Shown: one piece after another, positions 45,372-61,960 of the stretch
Layout: every line of letters begins with the position of its first letter
How positions within the stretch are numbered: position 1 is the first letter of the stretch
Assembly (NCBI GenBank): GCA_903877385.1
Contig: CAIRDP010000033.1
Coordinates: forward strand, 17,042-81,041
Source: an uncultured Bacteroidales bacterium
Lineage (GTDB): Bacteria > Bacteroidota > Bacteroidia > Bacteroidales > FEN-979
Direction: 5' to 3'
DNA length: 64,000 bases
Translations under genes and position numbers: made by a program
Notes under the pieces: model-generated
Seen by the model: the letters and a program-made list of their open reading frames with translations, nothing else
The model's database searches: none
What the model was told of the DNA's origin: nothing

Positions 45372-45629
45372 CAAAAAGAAGGCATAAATGATTACTTCAT
45401 GGAGCATGAAAAGTAAAAAATACTCCCGCAGGTTTTCTCAAATTAATCCAATCAAAGCCGTAAAACCCCCGATTTCCTGCCCCCGCTCCCGCATCAGGCT
45501 GAGTGGAATTTATGGGGAGAGAATAAACTCTTCAGCATACTGTACAAGTCCGGGCAGGGTGGAATCGTTATGCAATGGAAAACATATCGAACTTTTTGAT
45601 TTACGGCGCTTTGCGATGAAATTTTTACG

Positions 45630-45739: not shown

Positions 45740-47899
45740 ATGACCTTCAAAGAATTCCAAAACACCCACAAACTCCTCGCACAGTATAAATACAGCTGGG
45801 CTCCTATCGAAAAAGGATATAACAACCGTACCATTTACGTTAATGTAGGGGACCTTACAATAAAGGAAAAACCTGTAAATCAGCAGATGAAAGATAAATT
45901 CGTCGGCGGCAAGGGTTTTGACCTGCGGCTTCTCTGGGATTCAACTAAACCTGATACCAAATGGAACGACCCGGAGAATGAAATTGTAATTTCAGGCGGA
46001 CCATGTTGCGGGATCACCCAGTATTCCGGTGCAGGCAAGGCGATCTGCTGTGCCATCAGCCCTCAAACAGATATTGTTGTTGATTCGAATGTGGGCGGAT
46101 TTTTTGGTCCCTTCCTCAAATTTTGCGGGTTCGATGCGCTGGAAATACAGGGGAAGTCGGATCAGGAGGTAATGGTGGTTTTTGAAGAAGAACGGGAAGT
46201 GGTTGAGATCTATGAAGCAGGGGACCTGCCTACCGACAGCCATATCCTTGCCGAGATACTGCACGAAATAATGGCTAAACCCGAAAATGAAAAGGACAAG
46301 TACAATGTTTCGGTAGTTTCGGCCGGCACTGCTGCGGACCATTCCCTCATAGGGATGCTTAACTTCACGTTTTACGACATCAAGCGTAAAAAAGTCCGCC
46401 TGAAACAGGCCGGCCGCGGAGGGATTGGCACGGTTTTGCGCGACAAAAAGATCAAAGCCATGGTAGCCCATGTTAAAACCATTGGAGGGAACCGCAACAA
46501 CGTTGTGAACATGGAAGCCATACAGGAACGCGGGCGCACCTTCAACAAGGAAATGCGTGAGCTTGACGACAAGCAATGCGAAATGCGTTCGAAAGGCACG
46601 GCCCACCTCACCCACATCATGAATGATTACGACCTGCTCCCGGTCCATAATTTCAAATTCGGGAGCCATCCCAACGCCCACCTGATCAAGGGCGATGTAT
46701 GGAAGTCGTTCTTCACACAGAACGTACCCGACGGTTGCTGGGTAGGCTGCAATATGGCCTGCGCCAAAGGGGTTGATAATTATGAACTCCGAAGCGGTCC
46801 GTATAAAGGCGAGAAGGTCATCGTAGACGGGCCTGAATATGAGACCACATCATCCCTGGGTTCCGTTGCAGGTATTTTCAACCCTGACTTTACCATTGAA
46901 GCTAACTTTTACTGCGATACCTATGGCATCTGCACTATTTCCTGGGGAACCATCCTTGGTTTTGTGATGGAATGTTATGAGAATGGGATCATCAATGAAG
47001 AGAGAACTGGCGGACTTAAGCTGAATTTCGGCAATGCTGATGCGGCAATGGAGCTGCTTCACCAGGTTTCAAGGGGTGAAGGCTTCGGGCTTATCGCCGG
47101 CCAGGGTGTTCGAAAAATGAAAGGGATCTTTGCAAAGAACGGCTGGGGTGATCCCGGTTTCATGCAGGATATCGGCATGGAAAACAAAGGCCTCGAATAT
47201 TCCCAGTATGTTTCAAAGGAATCTCTGGCACAGCAGGGGGGTTATGCAATGACTAACAAGGGCCCCCAGCATGACGAAGCCTGGCTCATTTTCATGGACA
47301 TGGTCAACAACCAGATCCCCACTTTCGAGAAAAAGGCCGAGGCCCTTCATTATTTCCCTATGTTCCGCACCTGGTTCGGACTTGCAGGATTCTGTAAACT
47401 TCCCTGGAACGATGTGGAACCCGAAAACAATGCCCAGAGCGCTGAACCCGCCAAAGTTCCCGAGCATGTCGACAATTATGTTACCATATTCAATGCTGTT
47501 ACCGGCCTGACAATCGATAAAACAGAGCTCGTACGAATGTCCGAAAGGGTATATAATTTCCAGAGGATCTTAAGCATCCGCAGGGGTTACGGGCTCAGGA
47601 TGCACGACGCCCAGCCATACCGTGCCTGCGGTCCCGTTACAAAAGAAGAATACGAATCGAGGGCCGACCGCTACGATAAGCAGTTGCTTGAGAAAGTCGG
47701 ATTCGACCCTGCAGGTAAATCCACAGAAGAAAAAATGGCTGTCCTCAGGAAACACCGCGAAGAACAGTATGAAAAGCTCCTCGATGCAGTTTATGAACGA
47801 AGGGGCTGGACAAAGAACGGGGTCCCGAAGATCGAACATCTGAAAAACATAGGGATGGACCTGCCGGAACTGCTGGAAGTAGTAACACCTCTGCAATAG
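45740..47899 (+). CDS. Aldehyde:ferredoxin oxidoreductase-family tungstopterin enzyme
   Basis: A 719-aa AOR-family protein, usually a tungsten bis-pterin enzyme oxidising aldehydes to acids with ferredoxin. The N-domain includes FVGGKGFDLRLLWD, SGGPCCGITQYSGAGK and AGRGGIGTVLRDKKIKA, the pterin-binding parts. The cubane cluster ligands are C333, C337, C341 (CX3CX3C, against CX2CX3C in the archaeal AOR) and C552 in AGFCKLPW. It is about 100 residues longer than classic AORs, with a charged C-terminal extension. Substrate cannot be told. The wtp/moa operon 6 kb away would supply metal and cofactor. Confidence 0.9.
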   Translation: MTFKEFQNTHKLLAQYKYSWAPIEKGYNNRTIYVNVGDLTIKEKPVNQQMKDKFVGGKGFDLRLLWDSTKPDTKWNDPENEIVISGGPCCGITQYSGAGKAICCAISPQTDIVVDSNVGGFFGPFLKFCGFDALEIQGKSDQEVMVVFEEEREVVEIYEAGDLPTDSHILAEILHEIMAKPENEKDKYNVSVVSAGTAADHSLIGMLNFTFYDIKRKKVRLKQAGRGGIGTVLRDKKIKAMVAHVKTIGGNRNNVVNMEAIQERGRTFNKEMRELDDKQCEMRSKGTAHLTHIMNDYDLLPVHNFKFGSHPNAHLIKGDVWKSFFTQNVPDGCWVGCNMACAKGVDNYELRSGPYKGEKVIVDGPEYETTSSLGSVAGIFNPDFTIEANFYCDTYGICTISWGTILGFVMECYENGIINEERTGGLKLNFGNADAAMELLHQVSRGEGFGLIAGQGVRKMKGIFAKNGWGDPGFMQDIGMENKGLEYSQYVSKESLAQQGGYAMTNKGPQHDEAWLIFMDMVNNQIPTFEKKAEALHYFPMFRTWFGLAGFCKLPWNDVEPENNAQSAEPAKVPEHVDNYVTIFNAVTGLTIDKTELVRMSERVYNFQRILSIRRGYGLRMHDAQPYRACGPVTKEEYESRADRYDKQLLEKVGFDPAGKSTEEKMAVLRKHREEQYEKLLDAVYERRGWTKNGVPKIEHLKNIGMDLPELLEVVTPLQ

Positions 47900-49477: not shown

Positions 49478-50578
49478 ATGAAGGCAGATAAAAAACTCAG
49501 GGCAAGACTTCAAACCGAGGTAGATACGGCCTATCTGTACCGTCGTGTTGCCTTGATGGAGGATGATCCCGAGATAAGTGCCATCTACCTTGAGATGGCA
49601 AGGATAGAGGAATTGCATAAGTCGAAGGTAATGGAAAAAGTGAGGGCCATCGACAAGGCTGCAAGGGAACCAAAACCCTCGCCAAGGGCAAGGATCATTT
49701 CCAAGCTTGGAGGATTGTTCGGCCGGAACATGATACTGGGAATCCTGCTTGAGGCCGAAAAAAGCATTACAAATGCTTCTCTTTCAAAGAAGGATAAAAG
49801 CGGTGAAAAATCAAACGGGGCCGAGGACAGGCATGTCAAGATACTCCAGTCGCTCGATCAGTTAAGCGGTGATAAAGTAAGAAAAATGGAGCGCGGCCAC
49901 CGGAATGTGGGCGGCAATGCATTAAGGGCTGCCGTTTTAGGGGCCGATGACGGGCTTGTAAGCAACCTCAGCCTGGTTATGGGTGTGGCGGGTGCCACCC
50001 AGGGAGGCAATGCAGTGCTCATTGCAGGACTAGCCGGTTTGCTTGCAGGCGCTTTCTCCATGGCCCTGGGTGAATGGATATCCGTAAAAAGCTCACAGGA
50101 ACTTCTCGAAAGGCAGATTGAGATCGAAATGGAAGAGATTGAAAACAGCCCGGAAGAGGAATTCGAGGAAATCATCCTTCTTAACCGTGCCAAAGGAATT
50201 CCCGAGGATGAAGCAAGGGAGATTGCCAACAAGATATTTTCCAATAAGGATAATATGCAGGCCTTGCTGGTTAAGGAAGAACTGGGGCTGAATCCGGATG
50301 ATCTGAAAGGTTCTGCCTGGGAAGCGGCAATAGCATCTTTCGTGCTTTTCGTGACAGGGGCAATCATTCCCCTTGCGCCTTTCATTTTTCTAAAAGGACA
50401 GCAGGCTGTCATCACCAGTGTGGTACTAAGCACCATTGCCCTCTTTACAATAGGAGCGGCAATTACCCTCATCACGGGTAAAGGAGTGTTCAAATCGGGG
50501 ATGCGGCAGGTCCTTATAGGGCTTGCAGCCGCTGCAGTTACTTTTTCATTGGGAAGACTGATCGGTGCAAACCTCTGA
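49478..50578 (+). CDS. VIT1/CCC1-type transporter with ferritin-like N-domain
   Basis: A 366-aa protein in two parts. Residues 1-130 look like a half ferritin/rubrerythrin helical pair (TEVDTAYLYRR, YLEMARIEELHK with EExxH). Residues 140-366 match VIT1/CCC1 iron/manganese transporters: LRAAVLGADDGLVSNLSLVMG, GAFSMALGEWISVKSSQELLERQ, and five membrane helices, ending LGRLIGANL. It resembles MbfA-type metal exporters. It lies 6 bp after the fucosidase gene. Confidence 0.88.
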   Translation: MKADKKLRARLQTEVDTAYLYRRVALMEDDPEISAIYLEMARIEELHKSKVMEKVRAIDKAAREPKPSPRARIISKLGGLFGRNMILGILLEAEKSITNASLSKKDKSGEKSNGAEDRHVKILQSLDQLSGDKVRKMERGHRNVGGNALRAAVLGADDGLVSNLSLVMGVAGATQGGNAVLIAGLAGLLAGAFSMALGEWISVKSSQELLERQIEIEMEEIENSPEEEFEEIILLNRAKGIPEDEAREIANKIFSNKDNMQALLVKEELGLNPDDLKGSAWEAAIASFVLFVTGAIIPLAPFIFLKGQQAVITSVVLSTIALFTIGAAITLITGKGVFKSGMRQVLIGLAAAAVTFSLGRLIGANL

Positions 50579-54128: not shown

Positions 54129-54181
54129 CACACTTCCCCGATACCATGGATATGCATCTGAAAACATATCGAAAAAAATGT

Positions 54182-54237: not shown

Positions 54238-54618
54238 ATGGAAACAAAATTCAAACCCGGCCTGGAGCAAATTAAACTGGATTACAAGATCTGGCTTGCC
54301 GATAAGGACGGGAACGGGATCCTTGGGGACGGCAAATGGAAAATGCTTAAACTGATTGGCGAGAAAGGATCCCTGAAGGCAGCCTGTGAAGAGCTGGGCT
54401 ATACCTACCGCAGGACCTGGGGGAACATTAAAAAGATAGAAGATTTTTTCGGGTTCCCCCTGCTAGAAAAGCACCGTGGAGGAGCCGAGGGAGGAAGCAT
54501 GGCACTGACCGAAGAAGGGAAACTGCTGGTGAAGGCCTTTGAAAAATTTCATTCCAATGCCGACACCCTGATTCAAAAAGGATTCCGGGAATTCCTTGAT
54601 GATATTTCCAATAAATGA
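54238..54618 (+). CDS. ModE-type winged-helix regulator without TOBE domains
   Basis: A 126-aa DNA-binding protein of the ModE N-terminal (LysR-like winged helix) type: GDGKWKMLKLIGEKGSLKAACEELGYTYRRTW then KKIEDFFGFPLLEKHRGG and MALTEEGKLLVKAFEKF. The molybdate-binding TOBE domains of E. coli ModE are missing, so it cannot sense oxyanion the same way unless by a partner. It heads the tungstate/molybdate operon and probably controls it. Confidence 0.88.
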   Translation: METKFKPGLEQIKLDYKIWLADKDGNGILGDGKWKMLKLIGEKGSLKAACEELGYTYRRTWGNIKKIEDFFGFPLLEKHRGGAEGGSMALTEEGKLLVKAFEKFHSNADTLIQKGFREFLDDISNK

Positions 54619-54643: not shown

Positions 54644-55603
54644 ATGAAGCGACTTCTTTCGATTCTTTTATGCAGCATGCTTGCGCTGCCCGTTGCCTTT
54701 GCCCAGAGACCTGCTGACCTTAGCGGGGATCTAATCATTTTTCATGCCGGCAGCCTTTCGGTTCCGATGAAAGAGATCAAAGCCGAATTCAATAAGCTTT
54801 ACCCTAAAGTGAACGTATTGCTGGAATCGGCCGGCAGCGTGGAATGCGCCAGGAAGATCACCGATATTAAAAAGCCATGCGACATCATGGCTGCTTCGGA
54901 TTATAAAGTGATCGATAACCTGCTGATCCCGGCTTATGCCGACTGGAACATTAAATTTGCAGCCAATGAAATGTGCATTGCTTATACTAATAAGGCAAAA
55001 TACAAGGACCAGATCAATGCAAAAAACTGGTATGAGATCCTTATGAAACCTGAGGTTGCATTCGGCCGTGCCGACCCCAATGCCGATCCCTGCGGATACC
55101 GCTCGGTGATGTGCATGCTGCTGTCGGAAACGTACTACAAAAAACCTGGCCTTGCCAAACAGCTCAGCTCAAAGGACCTCAACTACATCAGGCCCAAAGA
55201 GGTGGATCTCGTGGCATTGCTGGAATCGAATAATATAGACTATATGTTTCAGTACAGGTCGGTGGCAGTACAGCATAATCTGAATTACGTGATCCTCCCC
55301 GACCAGGTCAACCTGAAAAACATCAGGTATGCTGATGAATACAGCAAAGCTGTGGTTGATATTAAAGGCAAGGAGCCCGGGAAAACAGAGCAGATGAAAG
55401 GCGAGCCAATGGTTTACGGACTGACCATGGTAAAGAATGCCCCGCATAAAGAAGCCGCCATCGCCTTTTTGGAATTCATGCTCTCGAAGGACAAAGGGAT
55501 GAAGATCATGGAAAAGGATGGACAGCCCTCGGTGATCCCTATGGAAGAAAAAAATTATACTGCCGTTCCCGACCGCCTCAAACCCTTTGTCAAGAAGCCG
55601 TAA
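54644..55603 (+). CDS. wtpA: Tungstate/molybdate-binding protein WtpA
   Basis: A periplasmic oxyanion-binding protein, 319 aa from the ATG at 54644 (MKRLLSILLCSMLALPVAFAQ, signal peptide). The track start at 54596 lies inside the modE gene. LIIFHAGSLSVPMKEIKAEF, LLESAGSVECARKITDI, CDIMAASDYKVIDNLL and FGRADPNADPCGYRSVM are WtpA/ModA hallmarks, and the last matches WtpA best. It delivers the metal to WtpBC encoded downstream. Selectivity for W against Mo cannot be read from sequence, but the AOR nearby favours tungstate. Confidence 0.92.
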   Translation: MKRLLSILLCSMLALPVAFAQRPADLSGDLIIFHAGSLSVPMKEIKAEFNKLYPKVNVLLESAGSVECARKITDIKKPCDIMAASDYKVIDNLLIPAYADWNIKFAANEMCIAYTNKAKYKDQINAKNWYEILMKPEVAFGRADPNADPCGYRSVMCMLLSETYYKKPGLAKQLSSKDLNYIRPKEVDLVALLESNNIDYMFQYRSVAVQHNLNYVILPDQVNLKNIRYADEYSKAVVDIKGKEPGKTEQMKGEPMVYGLTMVKNAPHKEAAIAFLEFMLSKDKGMKIMEKDGQPSVIPMEEKNYTAVPDRLKPFVKKP

Positions 55604-55615
55604 ATAATTGTTAAT

Positions 55616-56701
55616 ATGAAAACCAGGTATATCATTGCAGCAGGAATAATGTGTATTTTACCTTCAAGGTTTATGGCACAGGATAACAATAACGCGAAAC
55701 CTCCCGATAAGGGGCTGAAAGTTGTTACAGCCGCTGATCCCGGCGACAGGAACAACAATTTCTACGATAATGCCGACACTTATGCCCTTCCGGGCGGTGA
55801 AATCACTGTTGAGGGTGAAGTGGAGAATCCCGGGAAAGTTGATTTAACGGCACTTCTAAAACATTCAATCATCGTCAAAGAGGCGGTTCTTGGAGAGGAG
55901 GGTAAAAACCGTTTTACAGGCGCTTACCGTTACGACGGGTATTCCCTCTTCGACATCCTCAGCAGCAGGATACTGAAGAAAAAGAACAAGCAGGAGTTCT
56001 CCCCTGTTATTGACCTGTACGTAATTATCGAGAATGCCAAAGGTGATAAAGTTGTCCTGAGCTGGGGTGAGATCTTTTACCCGAACAACCTGCACAAATG
56101 CATCATCGCTACTGAAATTACAAGGATAGTCCCAAGCAAAACGAAAGATCTCTGGCCCCTTCCTTCGGAACGGAAGCTGGTCATGGGCAATGACCTCCTG
56201 GGCGAAAGAAATATCAGCAACCCTGTTAAAATCACAGTAAGGACACCCTCAAGAAGCATCCCGGTGAACAGGGACATGAACCCGCTATATTCACCCGGTA
56301 TAAGTATCACCCAAGGGAGTAAAGAGCTTCGAAAGATTGATTCGATCGCCCCTTCGGTACAAAATGAAACATACAATACCGTTTTTTACGGAAGGGGAAG
56401 GGGAATCCACAGCACTACACCATTTACCGGCATAAAACTGAAAGACCTTCTTGAACCCTACATTAAAATAACTCATGAATCCCTTCAGAATACCCTGCTT
56501 ACCTTCATTGCCGTGGACGGTTACAGAACGGTGTTTTCATTGAGCGAGGTGATGAACCGCTGCGACCAGGAAGAGGTTCTTCTTATTCCGTATACCGGCA
56601 GGGAAGATGGTGGAAAGTTCAGGTTATTTCCTGGTGGTGATTTCTTTTCCGACAGGGCAATCAAGTCCATTTCAGAGATATCGGTAAGTCCTGCTGAATG
56701 A
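55616..56701 (+). CDS. Duplicated SUOX-like periplasmic protein inside wtp operon
   Basis: A 361-aa exported protein (signal MKTRYIIAAGIMCILPSRFMAQ) made of two similar halves. Each has a motif like that of sulfite-oxidase-fold molybdopterin domains: ITVEGEVENPGKVDLTALL with YRYDGYSLFDILSSR in the first, GIKLKDLLEPYIKI with FIAVDGYRTVFSLSEVMNRC in the second. The metal-binding Cys of true SUOX enzymes is not obvious. It lies between wtpA (12 bp) and wtpB (ATGA overlap), so translation is coupled to the permease. A role in oxyanion or cofactor handling is inferred; I know no named family member in this position. Confidence 0.7.
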   Translation: MKTRYIIAAGIMCILPSRFMAQDNNNAKPPDKGLKVVTAADPGDRNNNFYDNADTYALPGGEITVEGEVENPGKVDLTALLKHSIIVKEAVLGEEGKNRFTGAYRYDGYSLFDILSSRILKKKNKQEFSPVIDLYVIIENAKGDKVVLSWGEIFYPNNLHKCIIATEITRIVPSKTKDLWPLPSERKLVMGNDLLGERNISNPVKITVRTPSRSIPVNRDMNPLYSPGISITQGSKELRKIDSIAPSVQNETYNTVFYGRGRGIHSTTPFTGIKLKDLLEPYIKITHESLQNTLLTFIAVDGYRTVFSLSEVMNRCDQEEVLLIPYTGREDGGKFRLFPGGDFFSDRAIKSISEISVSPAE

Positions 56702-57477
56702 AAAAACAAGGGCTTCAGTGGGTGTTTTCGATACTGGGAGGTCTGATCCTGTTATTTGTTTTGGGCCCGGTTCTCGGGCTGATGTTCTCATCCTCCCCCC
56801 ATAAATTATTTGAAACTGCACAGGATCCCGAAGTCAAGAACAGCATCATGCTTACCTTGGGCACTTCGATGGCAGGCACATTTCTCTTTGCCTTGGCAGC
56901 TGTTCCTTTTTCCTGGATACTTGCCAGGTACCAGTTCCCCCTGAAGAAACTGGTCACAGCCATTATCGACCTGCCCGTGGTGATCCCCCATTCGGCTGCC
57001 GGCATCGCTGTGCTGGGTTTCATTTCAAGGGATACCCTGCTGGGCAGGGCAGGATCACTAGCCGGGTTTAATTTCGTAGGCCACCCTGCAGGCATTATGA
57101 TTGCGATGGCGTTTGTAAGCCTGCCCTACCTCATCAATGCCGCAAGGGACGGCTTCCTTTCGGTTCCCGAGCGCCTTGAAAAAGCCGCCCTCACCCTGGG
57201 AGCCTCGCCCATAAGGGTATTTTTTACGGTTTCCCTGCCCCTGGCCTGGAAAAATATTCTGTCGGGGCTCATACTGATGTTTGCCAGGGGGATGAGCGAA
57301 TTCGGGGCTGTAGTCATCATTGCTTATCATCCGATGATAACACCTGTTCTGATTTACGAACGCTTTACTTCGTTCGGATTAAAATACGCCCAGCCGGTTT
57401 CAGTGATCTTTATCCTGGTCGTCCTTGTGTTTTTCATGATCCTCCGCCTACTGCTTTCAAATTCCAAAAAAAGCTGA
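56698..57477 (+). CDS. wtpB: Tungstate/molybdate ABC permease WtpB
   Basis: A 259-aa inner membrane permease with six hydrophobic segments, starting KKQGLQWVFSILGGLILLFV. The EAA loop that contacts the ATPase is AALTLGASPIRVFFTVSLPL, the usual motif of ModB/WtpB. It overlaps the SUOX-like gene by 4 bp and precedes wtpC by 4 bp. Confidence 0.92.
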   Translation: MKKQGLQWVFSILGGLILLFVLGPVLGLMFSSSPHKLFETAQDPEVKNSIMLTLGTSMAGTFLFALAAVPFSWILARYQFPLKKLVTAIIDLPVVIPHSAAGIAVLGFISRDTLLGRAGSLAGFNFVGHPAGIMIAMAFVSLPYLINAARDGFLSVPERLEKAALTLGASPIRVFFTVSLPLAWKNILSGLILMFARGMSEFGAVVIIAYHPMITPVLIYERFTSFGLKYAQPVSVIFILVVLVFFMILRLLLSNSKKS

Positions 57478-57481
57478 ACCC

Positions 57482-58528
57482 ATGCTTAAACTTACAGGGA
57501 TTAACAAGGATTTCAAAGGGTTCAAGCTAAGTGATATTTCGTTTACCGTTGAGAAGGGAGATTACTTTATATTGCTTGGCCCCTCGGGAGCCGGCAAATC
57601 CCTCTTGCTGGAGATTATCGCAGGCCTGGCGATACCCGATTCGGGCAGCCTGGAGCTTTACGGGAGGGACATTACCCAATTGCCAATTCAAAAGCGCAAG
57701 GTAGGACTGGTTTTCCAGGATCACGCGATCTTCCCTCATATGAAAGTCAAAAGCAATCTCGCATACGCCCTTCACGGGCAGCCGGGCGAGAGCATTCATC
57801 AGAAGATCATGGCCATGAGTGCAAACCTGGGTATTGGCGAACTGCTTGAGCGTTATCCTTCGACCCTTTCGGGCGGAGAGTTGCAGAGGGTTGCCCTGGC
57901 CCGTACCCTGATCCAGGAGCCTGAAATCCTCCTTCTCGATGAACCCCTCTCATCCATGGACACCCGGCTGAGATCGGGTACCAGGTCGTTGCTGAGGAAG
58001 ATACACCGGGCAGGACAGACTATCATTCACGTCACCCATGATTACGAAGAGGCGCTTTCGCTGGGGAACAGGATAGCCGTGATGGACCACGGGAATATTT
58101 TGCAAACAGGCACACCCGATGAAGTATTCCACAGTCCCAGAAACGGGTTTGTTGCCCATTTCATCGGGATCAGGAATTTCTTCCCGGCTAAAATCCGTTT
58201 GCATGACGGCATCCCCTGGGCCGAAACAGTCGGAAACCTGAAATTCCGCCTTCAGCAGGGACAAGATAATGAGTCGGGATTCGTTATGATACGGGGTGAA
58301 GATATTGTTCTTTCGGCATCGGCCCTCGATTCATCCGCCTCGAATGTTCTGGCAGGCAGGGTGCAGGAGACCACCACCACACCCCTGGGATGCGATGTAT
58401 GCATTGAATGCGGTGAAACGATTCACGCCTTGATCACTGCTGAATCCGTCTCAAACATGAGCCTGGATGAAGGCTCGGAGATCTGGATGAGCATTAAAGC
58501 CACGGCAGTTAAATTTATAGACGAATGA
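57482..58528 (+). CDS. wtpC: Tungstate/molybdate ABC ATPase WtpC
   Basis: A 348-aa ATPase energising oxyanion import. Walker A GPSGAGKSL (33-41), Q-loop Q79, signature LSGGELQR (129-136), Walker B ILLLDEP (149-155), and the switch His in HVTHDYEEA. A C-terminal TOBE-like region (from about 285: LAGRVQETTTTPLGCDVCIE) may bind oxyanion and inhibit transport. The last codons overlap moeA by ATGA. Confidence 0.93.
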   Translation: MLKLTGINKDFKGFKLSDISFTVEKGDYFILLGPSGAGKSLLLEIIAGLAIPDSGSLELYGRDITQLPIQKRKVGLVFQDHAIFPHMKVKSNLAYALHGQPGESIHQKIMAMSANLGIGELLERYPSTLSGGELQRVALARTLIQEPEILLLDEPLSSMDTRLRSGTRSLLRKIHRAGQTIIHVTHDYEEALSLGNRIAVMDHGNILQTGTPDEVFHSPRNGFVAHFIGIRNFFPAKIRLHDGIPWAETVGNLKFRLQQGQDNESGFVMIRGEDIVLSASALDSSASNVLAGRVQETTTTPLGCDVCIECGETIHALITAESVSNMSLDEGSEIWMSIKATAVKFIDE

Positions 58529-59703
58529 TACCTTTTGAAGAAGCTTTAGAGATTGTTTTAAACAACGCCATCCCTTCGGGAGAGGAAATTGTGGGCATGG
58601 AATCCGCCGCCTCCAGGGTTTTAAGCCGGGATGTGTTTTCAGATATCGACATGCCTCCGTTCGATAAATCGGCCGTGGACGGGTTTGCGTGCAGGATGCA
58701 GGATGCCGCAGCCGGGATGGGATTGCGCCTTGTTGAAACCATTCCTGCAGGTACCATTCCCGAAAAGCCTGTTCATGAAGGTGAATGTTCGAAGATAATG
58801 ACCGGCGGCATGCTGCCGAACGGGGCCGATACAGTGATCATGGTCGAGGATACGGAGATGTCATCCGCAGACCAGGTAAAATTCACAAAAGAAATTACCA
58901 CCAGGAATATCTGTTACAGGGCCGAAAACATTAAGAAAGGCCAGAAGGTTCTTGAAAAAGGGACGAGGCTGGAACCCGCCCATTTTGCAGTTCTCGCATC
59001 CGTGGGAAATACCGGGATATGGGTTGCCCGTCAGCCCCATATCGGTGTCATCTCAACAGGGAATGAGCTGGTTGAACCTGAGCATTTCCCTTCAGGGTCG
59101 CAGATAAGGAATTCCAATGCCTGCCAGCTTGTCGCCCAGGCCAGGCAGATACCCTCATTGTGCTCGTATTTCGGCATTGCCGATGATTCGCCCGAAGAGC
59201 TTAAGGATAAGATTTCCATGGGCCTTTACGAGGCCGACATCGTGATCCTTACGGGGGGAGTTTCAATGGGCGACTTTGATTATGTGCCCGGGGCCATGGA
59301 AAGCCTGGGAGCAAAGATCCTGTTTAAAAGCCTTGCCATACAGCCCGGGCGGCCTACCGTTTTTGCCTGTTATAACGATCAGTTCATCTTCGGTTTGCCT
59401 GGAAATCCGGTGTCTTCGTTTGTGCTCTTTGAACTGATGGTCAAACCTTTTGTGCTGAAAATGATGGGTTCCAACGAACAGCCAAGAATGCTTAAACTGC
59501 CTATGGGGGTTGATTTTTCAAGAAGAAAGAATTACAGGAAATCTGTTATTCCTGTGACTGTGGATGAAGGAGCTGTTTACCCCCTTGAATATCATGGTTC
59601 GGCGCATATCAATGCTTACACCAAAGCCGGGGGTATGATGATCATGGACATAGGGCAGACTGAAATTAAAAAAGGAGAACCGGCCAATGTACGATTCCTT
59701 TAA
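58525..59703 (+). CDS. moeA: Molybdopterin molybdotransferase MoeA
   Basis: A 392-aa enzyme that inserts molybdate or tungstate into adenylated molybdopterin. Marks include the N-terminal FDKSAVDGFAC, MTGGMLPNGADTVIMVEDTE, GVISTGNELVEP, VILTGGVSMGDFDYVP and GLPGNPVSSFVLFELMV. Length and domain order are usual. It overlaps wtpC by 4 bp and moaA by 17 bp. A dedicated copy beside wtp and AOR suggests it serves the tungsten form of the cofactor. Confidence 0.95.
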   Translation: MIPFEEALEIVLNNAIPSGEEIVGMESAASRVLSRDVFSDIDMPPFDKSAVDGFACRMQDAAAGMGLRLVETIPAGTIPEKPVHEGECSKIMTGGMLPNGADTVIMVEDTEMSSADQVKFTKEITTRNICYRAENIKKGQKVLEKGTRLEPAHFAVLASVGNTGIWVARQPHIGVISTGNELVEPEHFPSGSQIRNSNACQLVAQARQIPSLCSYFGIADDSPEELKDKISMGLYEADIVILTGGVSMGDFDYVPGAMESLGAKILFKSLAIQPGRPTVFACYNDQFIFGLPGNPVSSFVLFELMVKPFVLKMMGSNEQPRMLKLPMGVDFSRRKNYRKSVIPVTVDEGAVYPLEYHGSAHINAYTKAGGMMIMDIGQTEIKKGEPANVRFL

Positions 59704-60487
59704 GCGCCGGATCAATTACCTTAGGGTTTCGGTAACCGACCGCTGTAACCTCCGCTGTACTTACTGCATGCCCGCCGAAGGGGTAAAAATGCTGTCGCAT
59801 GCCGATATCCTTACCTACGAAGAGATCTTCGAAGTTATACAGATGGCTGTATCCATGGGGATTGACAAAGTAAGGATAACCGGGGGCGAACCCCTTGTAA
59901 GGAAAGGCATTGTGGAGTTTATCGGCCGGGTTGCAGGTATAAGGGGGATTAAAGACCTGGGACTTACAACCAACGGGATCCTCCTCGAAGAATTCGCCCT
60001 GGCCCTTGCCGGTGCAGGGCTTCAAAGGATCAACATCAGCCTCGACACCCTGGATCCGGTAAAGTACCGCCAGCTTACCCGGGGCGGAAAGCTTACGTCT
60101 GTTTTAAAGGGAATCGACGCAGCCCTGAAAGCAGGTCTTGAGCCGGTAAAAATCAACTGCGTCATCCAGAATTCTTCGGATGAGCCTGATGCCAGGGCCG
60201 TCAGGAAATTTTGCCTGGCCGCCGGGCTTGAAGCCAGGTTCATTCACCAGATGAACCTGGGCGAAGGTTGTTTCACCATAGTGGAGAACGGGCATGGAGG
60301 CGACTGCAGGCATTGCAACCGCCTGCGTTTAACCGCCAACGGTAAAATCAAACCCTGCCTCTTCAGCGACCTGGAATTCGACATCCGCACACTGGGAATA
60401 AAAAATGCAATTGAAGCTGCGACAGGGATGAAACCCGAAAAGGGAACAAGCAACAGCTCGGATTTTTTTCATAATATTGGAGGATGA
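59687..60487 (+). CDS. moaA: GTP 3',8-cyclase MoaA, short form
   Basis: A radical SAM enzyme for the first step of pterin cofactor synthesis. The SAM cluster is C20-X3-C24-X2-C27 (DRCNLRCTYC), GGEP is at 66-69, and the C-terminal cluster is C207-X2-C210-X13-C224 in DCRHCNRLRLTANGKIKPC, keeping the GTP-binding Arg pair. The GG C-terminus needed for catalysis is present (FFHNIGG). At 266 aa it is about 55-60 residues shorter than usual; the deletion is between RFIHQM and the second cluster. AAAGGAGA precedes the ATG. It is a shorter variant, not obviously broken. Confidence 0.9.
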   Translation: MYDSFKRRINYLRVSVTDRCNLRCTYCMPAEGVKMLSHADILTYEEIFEVIQMAVSMGIDKVRITGGEPLVRKGIVEFIGRVAGIRGIKDLGLTTNGILLEEFALALAGAGLQRINISLDTLDPVKYRQLTRGGKLTSVLKGIDAALKAGLEPVKINCVIQNSSDEPDARAVRKFCLAAGLEARFIHQMNLGEGCFTIVENGHGGDCRHCNRLRLTANGKIKPCLFSDLEFDIRTLGIKNAIEAATGMKPEKGTSNSSDFFHNIGG

Positions 60488-60526: not shown

Positions 60527-60553
60527 ATAGTTAAGAATGATGAAGGATTGTTT

Positions 60554-61006
60554 ATGTCTAAACTAACACATACTGATTCGTCGGGCAAGGCTGACATGGT
60601 CGATGTATCGGCAAAGCCTGAACAGCTGCGGACTGCTATGGCAACAGGCCATATTACCCTGGCCGGGGCCACTATAAACCTCATCCGCCAGAATAAGATG
60701 AAGAAAGGCGATGTGCTTACCGTGGCTGAGATTGCCGGGATACTGGGAGGAAAAAAAACCTCTGAGCTCATCCCCCTATGCCATCCCCTGGGTATAACAA
60801 AAATGGAAGTAAAAGCCGGCCTGGATAAAACCGGGGTTCGTATCAACAGTCTCACCCGTTGCACCGGCAAAACCGGGATCGAGATGGAGGCGCTTACTGC
60901 TGTTTCGGTTGCCCTGCTTACGATTTACGATATGTGCAAGGCTGCCGACAAGGCTATGGTCATCGATGAGGTGAGGCTGTTAAGCAAGACGAAGGAAGAT
61001 CTTTAA
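60554..61006 (+). CDS. moaC: Cyclic pyranopterin monophosphate synthase MoaC
   Basis: A 150-aa enzyme that forms cPMP from the MoaA product. KADMVDVSAKPEQLRTAMA, ELIPLCHPLGITKMEV (the catalytic His region) and CTGKTGIEMEALTAVSVALLTIYDMCKA are MoaC signatures. The track start TTG at 60548 is less likely than the ATG at 60554. It lies 66 bp after moaA, the widest gap in this operon, across the repeat. Confidence 0.96.
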   Translation: MSKLTHTDSSGKADMVDVSAKPEQLRTAMATGHITLAGATINLIRQNKMKKGDVLTVAEIAGILGGKKTSELIPLCHPLGITKMEVKAGLDKTGVRINSLTRCTGKTGIEMEALTAVSVALLTIYDMCKAADKAMVIDEVRLLSKTKEDL

Positions 61007-61027: not shown

Positions 61028-61960
61028 ATGGAGCAGCTTAAAGTAGTATCTGTAAATATTTCCGAACAAAAAGGAACCATCAAGAAGTCTGTGCCCTCGA
61101 TCATCCTGACACACCAGGGTGTGGAAGGCGATGCTCACTCAGGTCCCTGGAACCGGCAGCTGAGCATACTGGGGATGGGAAGCATACGAAAGTCTGAAAA
61201 ACAGGCCGGCCGCAGTATCTCCCCCGGTGAATTCGCCGAAAATATCAGCCTTGAAGGATTCGATTACCTACAGGCGCATCCCCTTGACCGTTTGACCTGC
61301 GGCGAAGTGGAGGCCGAGATAACCCAGATTGGAAAAGAATGTCACGGAACTTCCTGTTCAATTTTCAAAGAAACCGGGGATTGCGTGATGCCCAAAGAAG
61401 GGGTGTTTGCCCGTGTGCTTCATCCGGGCTGTATAAACAAAGGGGATACCGTTGAATTTCATCCGAAGATGTACAGGGCTCTCGTTCTAACCCTTAGCGA
61501 CAGGGCCAGTGCAGGGGAATACGAAGATAAATCGGGGCCCCGGCTGCAGGAAATTTTACAGGAATTTTTTAAAGAAAAGGGATTAAACCTCTATTTCCAT
61601 TATACACTGATACCCGACGACAGGCACAAGCTTGACGAACTGGTCAACCAGGCCAAGGATGAGCTTGTCGATTTTGTATTCACTACCGGTGGCACAGGGA
61701 TCGGCCCCAGGGATTTCACCGTGGATATTATCAAGCCTTTGCTCGACAAGGAAATTCCGGGTATCATGGAGATGATCAGGATAAAATACGGTGCTGTCAA
61801 AACCCAGGTCCTGCTCAGCCGCTCGGTTGCAGGTGTCATGGGTAAAACCCTGGTGTTTACACTGCCAGGCAGCGTCAAAGCTGTTAACGAATATATGGAC
61901 GAGATCCTGAAATCAATGATGCACCTGGTTTATATGATGCACGGGCTGGATGTTCACTGA
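61028..61960 (+). CDS. MOSC-MogA fusion protein
   Basis: A 310-aa fusion. Residues 1-145 are a MOSC domain (GVEGDAHSGPWNRQLSIL, ENISLEGFDYL, CHGTSCSIF with a candidate sulfur-binding Cys). Residues 147-310 are a MogA/MoaB-like pterin-binding domain (LVLTLSDRASAGEYEDKSG, FTTGGTGIGPRD, TLPGSVKAVNEYM), which adenylates molybdopterin before MoeA. It closes the cofactor operon, 21 bp after moaC. It couples adenylation to a sulfur-handling domain, a fusion known in some anaerobes. MoaE and a dedicated MoaD are not in the window. Confidence 0.92.
   Translation: MEQLKVVSVNISEQKGTIKKSVPSIILTHQGVEGDAHSGPWNRQLSILGMGSIRKSEKQAGRSISPGEFAENISLEGFDYLQAHPLDRLTCGEVEAEITQIGKECHGTSCSIFKETGDCVMPKEGVFARVLHPGCINKGDTVEFHPKMYRALVLTLSDRASAGEYEDKSGPRLQEILQEFFKEKGLNLYFHYTLIPDDRHKLDELVNQAKDELVDFVFTTGGTGIGPRDFTVDIIKPLLDKEIPGIMEMIRIKYGAVKTQVLLSRSVAGVMGKTLVFTLPGSVKAVNEYMDEILKSMMHLVYMMHGLDVH

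Follow-up and report, generated by a model that had tools for sequence, protein, structure and literature searches.

A duplicated SUOX-like protein without the molybdenum-ligating cysteine is probably an accessory part of tungstate/molybdate uptake in Bacteroidales

Introduction

Tungstate is scarce, and WtpA is a high-affinity binding protein. Three ABC transporters for molybdate and tungstate are known, ModABC, WtpABC and TupABC, and their descriptions include neither an outer-membrane receptor nor a fourth periplasmic part (PMC6147048). The window analyzed here, a stretch of 64,000 nucleotides from an uncultured Bacteroidales bacterium (GCA_903877385.1, contig CAIRDP010000033.1, positions 17,042 to 81,041), raises the question of what an additional part could be for: a gene for an exported protein is located between wtpA and wtpB. 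A sequence-only reading of this DNA had taken the protein for a new component of tungstate uptake. We investigated where this protein comes from, with which genes it is found and which role fits its conservation.

The target operon

The target gene (55616-56701, plus strand, from the ORF list of the window) is open from its ATG start for 361 codons and encodes a protein of 361 aa. It is encoded in the order modE–wtpA–target–wtpB–wtpC–moeA–moaA–moaC–MOSC/mog, with all genes on the plus strand. The first gene (54238-54618) encodes a ModE-like DNA-binding protein of 126 aa containing only the HTH part (PF00126, 35.6 bits; TIGR00637, 67.9 bits, below the cut-off of 98.5). The tungstate-binding protein WtpA (54644-55603) scores above the cut-offs of both NF003196 (385 bits, NCBIfam equivalog cut-off 355) and TIGR03730 (341 bits). 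The wtpB-like permease (56698-57477) and the wtpC-like ATPase with a TOBE domain (57482-58528; PF03459) have their best matches in the Wtp models NF040839 (274 bits) and NF040840 (352 bits), below the respective cut-offs of 340 and 440. Of the known systems, WtpABC is the one encoded in the same operon as the target. The TGA stop codon of the target gene (56699-56701) overlaps the ATG of wtpB (56698-56700) as ATGA, which confirms the coupling to the permease gene noticed earlier.

The downstream genes moeA (58525-59703), moaA (59687-60487), moaC (60548-61006) and a MOSC-MogA/MoaB fusion (61028-61960) were identified by domain and family model matches. The MoaA protein is short (266 aa versus 336 in TIGR02666; 282.4 bits versus 284.05): the first half of the C-terminal domain is absent and the GGDCxxCNRLRL...C motif is kept. 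Its orthologs in L002, a near-identical contig, and in L032 have the same length. A gene for an aldehyde ferredoxin oxidoreductase (AOR), a presumed tungsten user, is located upstream on the plus strand (45740-47899; PF01314, 318 bits; PF02730, 149 bits). Two genes downstream of it, the product of 49478-50578 carries a VIT1-family C-terminal domain and an unannotated N-terminal part that looks ferritin-like by eye only. A search of the 40-64 kb region of the window for Rfam Moco/tuco riboswitches found none.

The target is a single-copy gene in the window's genome (G000, 98% complete). Its product starts with a Sec-type signal peptide without a twin-arginine motif (residues 1-22; 55616-55681), in line with the periplasmic location proposed from the sequence. 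The signal peptide ends in ...RFMAQ, and cleavage would place the mature start at or near Gln22/Asp23. About half of the homologs are lipoproteins. An identity as GEGP motif diheme protein (NF041762) was considered and rejected, since the score is 15.7 versus 300 bits and the sequence contains no CXXCH.

Origin of the two repeats

The sequence-only reading also saw two SUOX-like repeats in the protein, which the target sequence by itself could not show. A direct match to PF00174 fails (13.3 bits, cut-off 24), and only 4 of 34 family members match this model, at E values of 0.02 or worse. Profile searches of PDB with the single protein and with the family profile gave no match, and nothing over cut-off was obtained from NCBIfam and PHROGs with either the target or the family profile. 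AlphaFold, with the two near-identical sequences of the window and L002 as input, returned pLDDT values of 28 and 32 (whole protein and second half, in the order listed).

The evidence for the repeats comes from single-domain relatives. In 396 genomes of the phylum, a profile of the 34 family members (alignment A1) matched full-length homologs in another class and secreted single-domain proteins of about 165-220 aa. Some of the latter match the N-terminal and C-terminal halves of A1 alike, and some pass PF00174 (38.0, 31.4 and 28.9 bits). In HMM-HMM comparisons (hhalign), the single-domain family matched residues 58-212 with probabilities of 97.1-98.0 and residues 213-361 with 98.0-98.4; single-domain relatives matched true SUOX enzymes with 95.4. 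Compared directly, repeat 1 and repeat 2 match weakly (probability 36%, E 4e-4). Because single-domain relatives pass PF00174 and match each half separately, the target is homologous to SUOX domains and likely descends from one by tandem duplication; the two repeats proposed earlier are correct by this route. The common ancestry with the PF00174 proteins SUOX, MsrP and sulfite oxidase is distant. In contrast to these, the target is below the Pfam cut-off, duplicated, and has neither the molybdenum-ligand cysteine nor a Tat signal. No ordinary PF00174 protein was found in 41 relatives.

Repeat 1 comprises residues 58-212 (55787-56251), and here an invariant Lys88 and a nearly invariant Glu89 replace the ligand-cysteine region of SUOX. 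Repeat 2 comprises residues 226-361 (56291-56698) and contains the motifs FYGxGxG, with invariant Tyr258 and His265, NRxDQ and DFFSDR. Throughout the family, K88, R198, H265 and R315 are invariant and R105, R304 and R347 nearly so. Judged by conservation, these basic residues of both repeats would suit an anion site.

Distribution and linkage

Of 295 genomes of the order, 55 encode the conserved duplicated family, 94 WtpA and 114 AOR. WtpA was found in 53 of the 55 genomes with the target gene and in 41 of the 240 without it (Fisher 6e-30, an optimistic P value since the genomes are related). Among WtpA-positive genomes, AOR is present in 51/53 with the target and 40/41 without, thus there is no further association; among AOR-positive genomes the target gene still tracks WtpA. 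Since the gene follows WtpA, and does not follow AOR once WtpA is fixed, the target goes with the transporter rather than with the enzyme. A genome survey of the links to wtp and AOR genes had been proposed from the sequence; the former link was found, the latter does not extend beyond WtpA.

Within five genes of the target, wtp genes occur in 30 of 53 loci, a TonB-dependent receptor in 26 and modE in 14; wtp and receptor occur together in 14, and at least one of the three in 43. The commonest same-strand upstream gene is the TonB receptor (22/53), followed by wtpA (11), and wtpB is directly downstream in 15. These counts come from related loci and are not independent; they span about 39 family codes. 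No partner gene was found at 10 of the 53 loci, some of which are on short contigs or at contig ends. In another class, two loci (L103 and L105) show the order wtpA-wtpB-wtpC-target-moeA-moaA-moaC-MOSC/mog, and a third (L104) has a 541-aa ORF between wtpC and the target homolog, again followed by moeA-moaA-moaC-MOSC/mog. A recurrent link to wtp, the absence of which would have spoken against the sequence-only reading, thus extends over dozens of families and into a second class. The viral contigs and plasmids searched contained no duplicated members.

Some loci carry further genes. A gene for a 4Fe-4S membrane protein (Fer4_5; L045:7126-8523) separates the SUOX gene from the TonB receptor, and in L061, L062, L064, L065 and L068 the SUOX gene is followed by two unannotated genes for small membrane proteins of about 247 and 265 aa, which resemble cytochrome c biogenesis proteins by eye only.

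WtpABC is described as a three-part system (PMC6147048), as the sequence-only reading also had it, and 41 of 94 WtpA-positive genomes do not encode the target. A relative from the same family (L164) has the same operon including the boxes described below and no target gene; the target is therefore an accessory part that the core WtpABC does not require. Compared with three-part WtpABC, a fourth, exported part recurs here, at times together with an outer-membrane receptor. Beyond the 55 carriers, a 34-aa remnant of the gene is present in G145. At L076:7359-7460, in a genome that has WtpA, the C-terminal 34 codons of the SUOX gene are located beside a probable toxin-antitoxin pair, a recent loss.

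ModE-type boxes

Upstream of these operons we found a palindrome of 24 bp with the consensus CGWTATG-N10-CATAWCG. Its 24-bp geometry is that of the ModE site in E. coli, for which the consensus ATCGNTATATA-N6-TATATANCGAT has been given (PMC545781); the half-sites differ. ModE homologs consisting only of the HTH part are known in Desulfovibrio (PMC545781). In the window, one box (GGATATG-N10-CATATCG, 54148-54171) is located upstream of the target operon and a second one (CGTTATG-N10-CATATCG, 45566-45589, no mismatches) upstream of AOR. These are the only boxes with up to one mismatch in the 4.3-Mb genome; this number is not unusual (the backwards control gave two per strand), whereas their placement is.

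In 70 loci (1.03 Mb), 38 boxes with up to one mismatch were detected, and 35 of them precede a system gene by at most 350 bp; system genes here are modE, wtp, TonB receptor, SUOX or neighboring lipoprotein and secreted-protein genes. The reversed pattern gave no site in the same loci at this threshold. With two mismatches allowed, there were 61 sites, 50 of them upstream of system genes, compared to 13 and 1 in the reversed control. The spacing is specific as well: a shorter half-site gave 27 matches at N12 and no more than 12 at each of the other spacings. Boxes directly precede a SUOX gene that is the first gene in L066, L069 and L058.

The box data suggest that the target operon is part of a ModE-type regulon, and the local ModE-like protein may recognize the box. 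The boxes upstream of AOR and of the operon would link a tungsten enzyme and tungsten uptake in one small regulon. Compared with the known ModE regulon, the predicted targets here take in a TonB receptor, surface lipoproteins, the SUOX-derived gene and AOR. Together with the wtp linkage, the ModE-type regulon bears out the earlier proposal of an extra, recurrent part of tungstate/molybdate uptake, and the target is very probably a member of such a ModE-type system.

Single-domain relatives and outer-membrane partners

The closest relatives of the target are short secreted proteins of about 160-220 aa, named molybdopterin-dependent oxidoreductases in public databases and encoded beside TonB receptor, mod or nifQ genes, and they are likewise tied to Mo/W uptake and ModE. 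In contrast to the duplicated target they have a single domain and some of them the cysteine; their function is likewise putative, and the name given to them in databases probably misleads. Of 30 Bacteroidota loci with a single-domain gene, 22 have a TonB receptor directly upstream of it, and several of the others adjoin mod/wtp-like ABC genes. On a P. aeruginosa plasmid, TonB receptor and SUOX genes overlap and are located beside moaA and narIJHG. Deinococcus has the order modA-TOBE protein-SUOX-permease, so that the SUOX gene occupies the interval between binding protein and permease as it does in the window. In Caballeronia, nifQ and then a gene for a short LysR-type HTH protein follow the SUOX gene. 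This homolog (L123:4941-5429), directly before nifQ, has no evident signal peptide and is possibly a cytoplasmic version.

Upstream of SUOX-linked TonB receptors we found genes for lipoproteins of about 305 aa without a Pfam match (L065:12082-13002 and similar, alignment A6). They have an invariant lipobox cysteine followed by a Lys/Asp/Glu-rich stretch, and a ModE-type box is often located directly before them. The layout of TonB receptor plus lipoproteins is analogous to BtuB-BtuG-type uptake in Bacteroides (PMC10404256); compared with that system, the lipoprotein family is a different one and the context is Mo/W rather than B12. In the window's genome no homolog of the surface lipoprotein, no TonB receptor with a box and none linked to the target were found. 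The outer-membrane half is therefore not evident in this organism, and the target may serve WtpA alone there.

A different arrangement was found in L165, L167, L169, L172, L173, L174 and L182, where an alginate-export-type beta-barrel protein of about 418 aa (PF13372) is encoded between wtpA and wtpB. The barrel is possibly a dedicated tungstate porin. The SUOX protein is present in one of ten genomes with the wtpA-barrel-wtpB arrangement, compared to 52 of the 84 other WtpA-positive genomes. Barrel and SUOX protein look like alternatives to each other in the envelope, and this too speaks for a transport role of the target.

Discussion

As the best overall explanation we propose, with a probability of roughly 0.55, that the target is a SUOX-derived accessory periplasmic protein that relays or loads the ligand in ModE-controlled W/Mo uptake. 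It appears with either half of the system, the receptor side or WtpA, which is best explained by a carrier or loader between them. Of the roles suggested earlier, loading or carrying is our best guess. According to this proposal, a SUOX-domain protein would have lost the Mo-ligating cysteine and been duplicated, and its descendant would leave the cytoplasm through Sec, free of pterin cofactor. Many Bacteroidales would produce it along with a TonB-dependent receptor and surface lipoproteins; in others its gene is placed between wtpA and wtpB. The protein would bind the oxyanion, or a metal complex brought through the outer membrane, and hand its ligand to WtpA; this would allow WtpABC to work at very low external concentrations. 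Because the window's genome encodes WtpA and AOR, the ligand there would be tungstate rather than molybdate. For the specific relay mechanism we see even odds. A wider proposal is tentative and falls just short of an even chance: W/Mo would have a dedicated TonB route through the outer membrane (ModE box, receptor, surface lipoproteins) in Bacteroidota and, with single-domain relatives, in Pseudomonadota, and a cysteine-less, Sec-exported SUOX-derived protein would be its periplasmic carrier to WtpA or ModA.

The strongest of the other explanations, an unlikely one, is that the TonB receptor imports a pterin, Moco or Mo/W-metallophore complex, which the target binds and from which it removes the metal. 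The frequent position of the receptor directly upstream of both duplicated and single-domain genes would fit, TonB receptors usually import chelates, and SUOX folds normally hold a metal-pterin. However, the full set of Moco biosynthesis genes is encoded in the same operon, an unsystematic look recognized no metallophore synthesis genes near the loci, and several genomes, the window's among them, have the target and no linked receptor.

Slightly less probable is a protein that carries no metal and acts either as a sensor of W/Mo in the periplasm or as an assembly factor, through which WtpA docks to WtpBC or to the TonB receptor. The overlap with wtpB, a core transporter that can do without the target and conserved residues spread through both repeats are all consistent with this. 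But the target has no transmembrane or signaling domain, and ModE-type regulation already offers sensing in the cytoplasm. As for docking, the single-domain relatives pair with ModABC and WtpABC alike, making a fixed docking partner unlikely.

It is improbable that the target is a pterin-cofactor enzyme (Moco or Wco), such as an oxyanion reductase, that is controlled by ModE as a user of the metal, like AOR. The SUOX ancestry in the profile chain and the box before AOR, itself a metal-using enzyme, would agree with an enzyme, and some single-domain relatives retain a cysteine near the SUOX ligand position (VVC-x-SG). The Mo ligand of SUOX enzymes is a cysteine, yet the 34 duplicated members have no conserved cysteine column in either repeat, the lipobox excepted. 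The cysteine is also absent from several single-domain relatives, Deinococcus with its mod-operon SUOX gene included, so that the uptake-linked role is independent of it. Insertion of pterin cofactors takes place in the cytoplasm, and exported Moco enzymes are already folded when they cross the membrane; as a Sec substrate, the target should therefore arrive without cofactor. None of 54 duplicated members has a Tat signal when read from a credible start, compared to five of five control SUOX enzymes. The missing cysteine and Tat signal make an oxyanion reductase or another Moco enzyme unlikely and disfavor two suggestions of the sequence-only reading, reduction of the oxyanion and binding of a pterin cofactor. 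In addition, the gene follows WtpA and not AOR at fixed WtpA.

A passenger with some other periplasmic role that is only co-regulated, for which the ten loci without a partner gene could speak, is very improbable in view of the co-occurrence with WtpA, the boxes right before SUOX as first gene and the independent insertion between modA and the permease gene in Deinococcus.

A review of TonB-dependent transport contains no occurrence of molybd- or tungst- (PMC11658791). In the literature searched, most of it open access, we found no account of the target protein or of TonB-dependent molybdate or tungstate uptake.

If the accessory relay proposed here is correct, the scarce metals tungsten and molybdenum would have an energized outer-membrane path of their own, like iron and B12. 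Many short secreted proteins now called molybdopterin-dependent oxidoreductases would be parts of transport systems and not enzymes, and the fold of a molybdoenzyme would have been repurposed as a transport protein for metal oxyanions.
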